The position numbers and the translations under genes were made by a program. DNA of 64,000 nucleotides from positions 43,551 to 107,550 of the forward strand of contig JAKACV010000003.1 in the NCBI GenBank assembly GCA_021821085.1, written 5' to 3'. A model generated the notes under the pieces. That model worked only from the letters and a program-made list of their open reading frames with translations, did not search any database and was not told the DNA's origin. Source of the DNA: Bacillota bacterium (GTDB lineage Bacteria > Bacillota > Bacilli > Alicyclobacillales > SLC66). Of the stretch, positions 6,505-64,000 are shown piece after piece (the stretch's first letter is position 1; each line of letters starts with the position of its first letter).

Positions 6505-7452
6505 TTATTGTATGGGTGAGATCCACGTCGCCGCAATTTCCACGTCCAGTAAAAGCCTATGCTGCAGCGCAGAAAGGTCAGGAAAGCGTTGTTCGCCACG
6601 GATATAATGTAAAATATCGACAATCATTTCAGAGCCATACAAATCGCCCGTAAAGGAAAGAACATGCACCTCAATGGTCAGTTCACCTTCCTTATAAAAT
6701 GTTGGACGTCTGCCTACATTCATTACAGCACGTTTTCGTTCATTGTCAATCCAGACATCAACCACATACACGCCAAGTGCTGGTAACACATAATTTTCGG
6801 TCAAACAAAGATTTGCCGTAGGAAACCCAATCGCACGTCCTCTCTGATCACCTTGAATCACGTGACCACGTATGCGATACGGACGACCTAAAAAGCCCAT
6901 CACCTGATCAATACGGCCATCAGCTAATTCTTTTCGTATCATCGAGCTACTGACAGGAATACCGTCAAAGTCAACTGCCTGCACTACATCAACACCCACA
7001 TGATATTCCTCGCCGATCAATCTCAAATCATCCGGAGTGTACCGACCCTGTTTACCAAAGCGAAAATCATATCCGACTACGAGATGTCGTGCGCCTAGTG
7101 GAAGGAGATATTGTAGTACAAACTCCTTTGCGGTCTGCTGCTGGAAATCTCGATTAAATCGCGCCGCAAATATAGTCTCCACACCAAGTGCACGTGCAAC
7201 TTTCGCCCGTTCCTGCAATGGTGTAAGAACTCGTGCATACGCTGCATCCCCTGTAAGTACGAAACGGGGATGAGGATCAAAGGTAAAAAGTGATGAACTC
7301 AATTTCAGAGTCCGTGCAACTTCGACCGCACGGTGAATGACTGCCTGATGAGCGATGTGGATTCCATCAAATTTACCTATGGCAATTATTCTCTGCGATT
7401 TCTCGGTAGCAATGGGTGGCCTATGCAATTGAATGAGGATCGGTGCAGTCAT
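6505..7452 (-). CDS. ribF: Bifunctional riboflavin kinase/FAD synthetase
   Basis: 315 aa, IAIGKFDGIHIAHQAVI nucleotidyltransferase motif and C-terminal flavokinase domain (GFPTANL). Confidence 0.95.
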   Translation of the reverse strand: MTAPILIQLHRPPIATEKSQRIIAIGKFDGIHIAHQAVIHRAVEVARTLKLSSSLFTFDPHPRFVLTGDAAYARVLTPLQERAKVARALGVETIFAARFNRDFQQQTAKEFVLQYLLPLGARHLVVGYDFRFGKQGRYTPDDLRLIGEEYHVGVDVVQAVDFDGIPVSSSMIRKELADGRIDQVMGFLGRPYRIRGHVIQGDQRGRAIGFPTANLCLTENYVLPALGVYVVDVWIDNERKRAVMNVGRRPTFYKEGELTIEVHVLSFTGDLYGSEMIVDILHYIRGEQRFPDLSALQHRLLLDVEIAATWISPIQ

Positions 7453-62703: not shown

Positions 62704-62903
62704 ACGTCATGGCAACTTTGATATTCAACTAGTACACTCACTACAAAGCACAGAAGTTGTCCGCCTTATGATGACTCGCGCATATGCGGTCTGGTGTTCT
62801 AGTACAATGATAGATAGCCAAGTTAACCAGAATCCCTAGCGCAGGTTCGCGATCGCACGCGTTCAATCTGCGCTTTTTATTCTGAGATGACGGGGTGTTA
62901 GCG

Positions 62904-63941
62904 GTGTATGCTGTAACACATGGCATTGCTCTATACGGTATTGAAGGTCTTATGATCGGCGTGGAGGCTGATGTGCAAAGTGGATTACCAGGCTTTGAGA
63001 TGGTAGGTCTGCCCGCCTCTTCGATTCGCGAGGCAAAAGAAAGAGTCCGGTCTGCTCTCATCAACAGTGGTTTTAATTGGCCACGCGGTCGCATTACCGT
63101 GAGTCTCTCACCTGCAGATTGGCGCAAAGAAGGAAGTGGTCTCGATCTGCCAATCGCCATTGCCATATTGATTGCTTCGGAGCAACTTCCCCCCATCCCG
63201 CATCACACCGTGTTACTTGGTGAACTAGCGCTCGATGGGACTCTACGCGAATTCAGAGGACTCTATGCATCTGTAAAATGCGCCGTCGAGCTTGGAGCAA
63301 ACGACCTGATCCTTCCCGTGACAAATGAATTCGATTTAACGCTCGGATCCAATTCGTCTCGCATGATCGCATTGCGTACTCTCTTTGAATCCGTCCAGGC
63401 ATTGCGTGGTCATTTTATTACAAAAAAAACAGATGCACCATCTCTGTTTTTTCACGTTGCGCTCGTTGCAAAACAGAACCCTTCCTCAAACACACAAGCA
63501 GAAAACCACATCCGTGATTTCCGTGACATCGTAGGACAAGTGCTTGCGAAACGAGCTATGTTCATTAGCGCCATAGGAAATCACCATATGCTATTCTATG
63601 GCCCGCCGGGTTCTGGAAAAAGCATGTTGGCTGAACGTCTTCCATCTATTTTACCAAATATATCGCCGAGTGAATTTGCAGAACTCAAACATATTTACAG
63701 CATTGCTGGCTTACCGATGACTGAGGACACACAACGCCCATTTCGCTCACCGCATCATTCAATTACTGTGCAGGGACTATTAGGTGGAGGAGTACACCCA
63801 AAACCAGGTGAAATTACTCTCGCCCATCACGGTGTTTTATTTTTAGATGAGTTCCCTGAATTTACTCGACAAGCACTAGGAGTCCGTCCGATGGATTATC
63901 GGGGCGGGACTCCTTTCCATCCTGTTTGTTCCAATTTCTAG
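62904..63941 (+). pseudogene. comM: ComM/YifB family Mg-chelatase-like AAA ATPase, truncated after Walker B (homology ends ~63878)
   Basis: [89 protein letters not shown], then non-homologous tail [20 protein letters not shown]. Confidence 0.8.
63879..63913. repeat. Hairpin at the comM break point
   Basis: GGAGTCCGTCCGATGGATTATCGGGGCGGGACTCC, near-perfect inverted repeat at the exact point where ComM homology ends. Confidence 0.6.
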
Positions 63942-64000
63942 TCTTTGTTCTGTTTATTCTAGGCTTTCAATATTTTTTTGCATAATTATCCATCGATCTC

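Follow-up and report, generated by a model that had tools for sequence, protein, structure and literature searches.

The comM gene of Acinetobacter is well known to be interrupted by AbaR islands and other elements (PMC11472951). Among insertion sequences of the IS1182 family, ISPsy36 from Pseudomonas syringae uses GGCC as its target (PMC8027508), and for IS1272 from Staphylococcus aureus, replacement of stem-loops at the target, with no target duplication, has been reported (PMC5678879). Here we describe a comM gene from a Bacillota bacterium that is interrupted close to the end of the window (the whole stretch of DNA that was analyzed, 64 kb). We believe, with a probability of about 0.9, that the insertion at a CTAG in comM is a DDE-type insertion sequence, most likely an IS1182-family member of approximately 1.7 kb, whose transposase gene runs antisense to comM.

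comM is cut just after the Walker B motif. The open reading frame (62895-63941, plus strand) starts with GTG and encodes 348 amino acids, with a ChlI domain (PF13541) at residues 23-144 (E = 1.7e-39), Walker A (GPPGSGKS) and Walker B (VLFLDEF) motifs, and a match to Mg_chelatase (PF01078) that stops at profile position 124 of 207. Intact ComM proteins in two genomes of the genus share 67-68% identity with the comM 5' part. ComM coding runs through CAAGCACTAG, whose CTAG ends at 63879; a 20-residue tail that is not ComM and the stop at 63941 come next, both encoded by DNA of the inserted element. The first-pass annotation had placed an interruption and an unrelated tail exactly here and had read the site as a mobile-element boundary, and our analysis agrees with it on these points: the boundary is the left end of an insertion sequence present in four copies. 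In the 348-residue product Walker A and B are present, and the remainder of the AAA+ module is missing along with the C-terminal domain; we infer that the product is very probably inactive. A ComEC-type Competence domain is present in the genome, and an effect of the comM interruption on transformation is possible. It has been proposed for Acinetobacter that loss of comM favors the persistence of an element, with fewer elements removed by transformation. By analogy the same might apply here, which we regard as very doubtful; if true, the conflict between comM and mobile elements would extend to an environmental Bacillota lineage that has comEC.

The contig ends inside a repeat that is present four times in the genome. 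The final base of the window is also the final base of its contig, C105 (107550 of 107550), and we studied the contig ends by sequence searches. The last 125 bp of the window (63876-64000) are found again at the ends of C23, C73, and C77 (113-125 bp, 98-100% identity), and each of these copies opens with CTAG and is preceded by unrelated sequence. The sole match to Mg_chelatase_C in the genome is on C45, approximately 400 bases from the contig end. In the orientation of comM, the first approximately 120 bp of C45 end in TCGTCGGACGGACTCCTAG and AAGGCCTACGCCAACC comes next, so that the comM 3' half, which the first-pass annotation expected on the far side of an element, directly follows the other element end (...TCGGACGGACTCCTAG). 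C9, C65, and C6 also terminate in this opposite (right) end. Left and right ends number four each, with 98-100% identity, and lie approximately 125 bp or less from contig ends; these are four copies of one insertion sequence. All eight contigs break off 113-126 bp inside the repeat, as would fit an assembler that halted about one k-mer into it, and the assembler's failure to get across this repeated element is most likely why C105 ends 121 bp past 63879. The junction at 63879 is not a misassembly. A simple frameshift, an explanation that the first-pass annotation held against its own, was rejected: the 3' half does not lie directly downstream and is on C45, behind the other element end.

Features at the interrupted comM gene (positions in the window).
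Feature	Position	Strand	Basis
comM/yifB 5' part	62895..63879	+	328 residues to insertion point; open reading frame list, Pfam
CTAG target site	63876..63879	.	sequence at both junctions; second copy across the element on C45
Terminal inverted repeat GGAGTCCGTCCGA	63879..63891	+	left versus right end, 13/13 identical
Terminal hairpin	63879..63914	.	DNA and RNA folding
Insertion sequence left end (transposase 3' side)	63880..64000	-	113-125 bp also present at three further contig ends; transposase start region at opposite end

Insertion duplicated the CTAG and removed nothing from comM. CTAG is present at all eight element ends in the genome. It occurs 86 times in the window, compared to 240 times expected from base composition, and given this scarcity, CTAG at four of four sites is not due to chance. 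When the comM flanks were joined over a single CTAG, the result was an uninterrupted ComM of 526 amino acids that aligned without a gap at the junction to intact ComM from five relatives (two from the genus and three others from the family). Therefore, four base pairs were duplicated and nothing was lost. Likewise, joining the left flank on C23 to the right flank on C6 over one CTAG gave a continuous open reading frame that we take to be sigI-like, followed by one that is presumably rsgI-like; this second copy splits the sigI-like sigma-factor gene in the same manner as comM. CTAG is a 4-bp target duplication, and a duplication of TA within CTAG would look identical. Stem-loop replacement as published for IS1272 (PMC5678879) would have deleted a palindrome native to comM, and the end of the element in comM is itself a hairpin. 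However, a join over one CTAG leaves both ComM and the sigI-like gene whole, no ComM residue is missing compared to the relatives, and the relatives have no palindrome at the insertion point. The chance that the insertion occurred by such replacement, rather than by ordinary duplication of CTAG, is close to nil.

The hairpin at the junction belongs to the element. The first-pass annotation had noted a hairpin at the break, which is real: the DNA fold of 63876-63920 was -10.7 kcal/mol with a z-score of -3.1 (better than shuffled sequence), and the RNA fold was -20.9 kcal/mol with a z-score of -2.6. Its inner arm looks like the terminal repeat over again, in reverse orientation. The structure is the terminus of the element itself, is found in every copy, and is not a property of comM. 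It may have a role such as stopping transcription across the end of the element. A search of Rfam with the part of the window from 62 to 64 kb gave a chance match to a miRNA and nothing else. The terminal inverted repeat and short direct repeat that would be expected of an inserted element are both present, as a 13-bp repeat and as CTAG on both sides. The first G of GGAGTCCGTCCGA doubles as the last base of the CTAG target, and the comM junction is the sole match in the window to CTAG plus the terminal repeat.

The start of a putative transposase gene is at the right end. Reading inward from that end, K-K-L-A-K-F is encoded approximately 115 bp from the tip, and related elements begin their transposases with M/V-A-K-F at 90-126 bp from the tip. 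We give this match modest weight, as it comprises a few residues. The expectation that a transposase would be found was borne out for the start region and not for the interior, which was not found in the assembly; other transposases in the genome that match the IS1182 model were all below its cut-off. One candidate for the interior, a degenerate IS1182-like transposase fragment on C13, was rejected, as its surroundings are without these ends. The region (C13:17080-18632) contains broken transposase remnants that match the IS1182 model and lack CTAG and terminal-repeat ends; one remnant is 63% identical to a transposase from the metagenome-assembled genome DX2.bin20 (locus L061).

With the interior absent from the assembly, a larger composite transposon, or an insertion sequence with passenger genes, could in principle lie between the two halves of comM. 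However, each site showed a single left and a single right end, which makes four left and four right ends, and a composite transposon would need two copies of the insertion sequence per site. Further, any cargo found at one site and not at the others would be expected as a contig with element ends at its borders. We consider a larger insertion improbable and favor a single insertion sequence, whose interior and length of approximately 1.7 kb are inferred.

The ends of the element match those of IS1182-type elements. An exact scan of genome contigs found the end motif TTCGTCGGACRGACTYCTAG in 40 stretches, all from Bacillota, mostly Paenibacillus, and also Aneurinibacillus, Neobacillus, Pseudalkalibacillus, and several metagenome-assembled genomes. 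When the order was searched, several copies of the end motif turned up in one genome from the same family. Pairs of ends at intact length, 1707-1738 bp apart (1.71-1.74 kb), enclose an open reading frame of approximately 500 codons in four distinct elements: two in DX2.bin20 (L061 and L065), one in Neobacillus fumarioli (L060), and one in Paenibacillus oceani (L077). All four encode transposases of one kind. The one of the four that was typed matched NF033551 (IS1182 family; E = 2.2e-136; 455.6 bits versus a cut-off of 270) and the Pfam domains DDE_Tnp_1_6, DDE_Tnp_1, and DUF772. The terminal repeat GGAGTCCGTCCGA matches GGAGTC(C/T)GTCCGA of these elements; beyond it, the ends are weakly similar to other elements. 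Searches of 18 genomes from the family and 400 from the class gave no intact copy of this exact element, and its ends had no match in viral contigs and plasmids. Judged by its ends, the typed relative, and the transposase start residues, the element very probably belongs to the IS1182 family.

Two other classes of element were weighed against this assignment. IS630 elements prefer CTAG and duplicate TA, and the CTAG junctions alone fit duplication of either CTAG or TA. Insertion by a member of another DDE family such as IS630 is nonetheless unlikely: all four intact-length elements with these ends share one kind of transposase, and the typed one is IS1182. The first-pass annotation had suggested as plausible a Tn7-like island of the AbaR/Tn6022 type that targets comM, a gene known to be hit by such islands in Acinetobacter (PMC11472951). 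That proposal is not supported: the same ends occur at four loci that have nothing in common, the site is CTAG with duplication of 4 bp in every case, and the ends match IS1182-type rather than Tn7-type elements. We give it practically no credence.

Short elements with the same inverted repeats were also observed. These are 123-231 bp, have no long open reading frame, and mostly have CTAG on both sides (L026 1382-1516, on C76 at about 7027-7161; L013 1396-1529; and L038, L042, L043, L049, L050, L053, L057, L062, and L074). They are candidates for miniature elements that IS1182-type transposases mobilize. Elements of just 54-56 bp with these ends are present at two Paenibacillus loci (L067 and L069). 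A second dispersed repeat of approximately 150 bp, with inverted ends GAGGTTGTTCAAAAAGGGTCGAGAACTCTGCG ... CCCTTTTTGAACAG (L004 about 1108-1263, on C77; L026 about 1605-1770, on C76), is probably another miniature element. In Paenibacillus sp. Soil787 (L063 1560-1900), the last ~130 bp of an IS1182-type element are present a second time, in tandem behind its right end and beside an N; either this part was duplicated in tandem or the assembly is faulty.

Based on these results, we propose that the insertion sequence transposed into a CTAG inside comM and duplicated it, with the transposase gene on the minus strand, its body past the contig end and its 3' side in the window. Three more copies are at other CTAG sites, one of them in the sigI-like gene. 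This is an ordinary insertion by a known kind of element. A single step accounts for both the truncation of comM and the end of the contig, and this reading guards against a mistaken claim of a comM-targeting island.

The comM element is similar to the four intact-length elements in its terminal repeat, its CTAG-flanked ends, and the distance of the transposase start from one end, with the exception that CTTG replaces CTAG at one end of the P. oceani element; the hairpin at its left end is not obviously common to them. It hits the same gene as the AbaR/Tn7-like islands of Acinetobacter and differs from them in element class, target, and scale. Like ISPsy36, it has a four-base palindromic target and disrupts a gene, with CTAG in place of GGCC; the use of GGCC by ISPsy36 means that a four-base palindromic target fits the IS1182 family. 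It very probably shares its family with IS1272, and like IS1272 it has hairpin-forming ends. In contrast to the stem-loop replacement of IS1272, the comM element has CTAG on both sides with nothing lost, and would be a further IS1182-type case of CTAG targeting by ordinary duplication.
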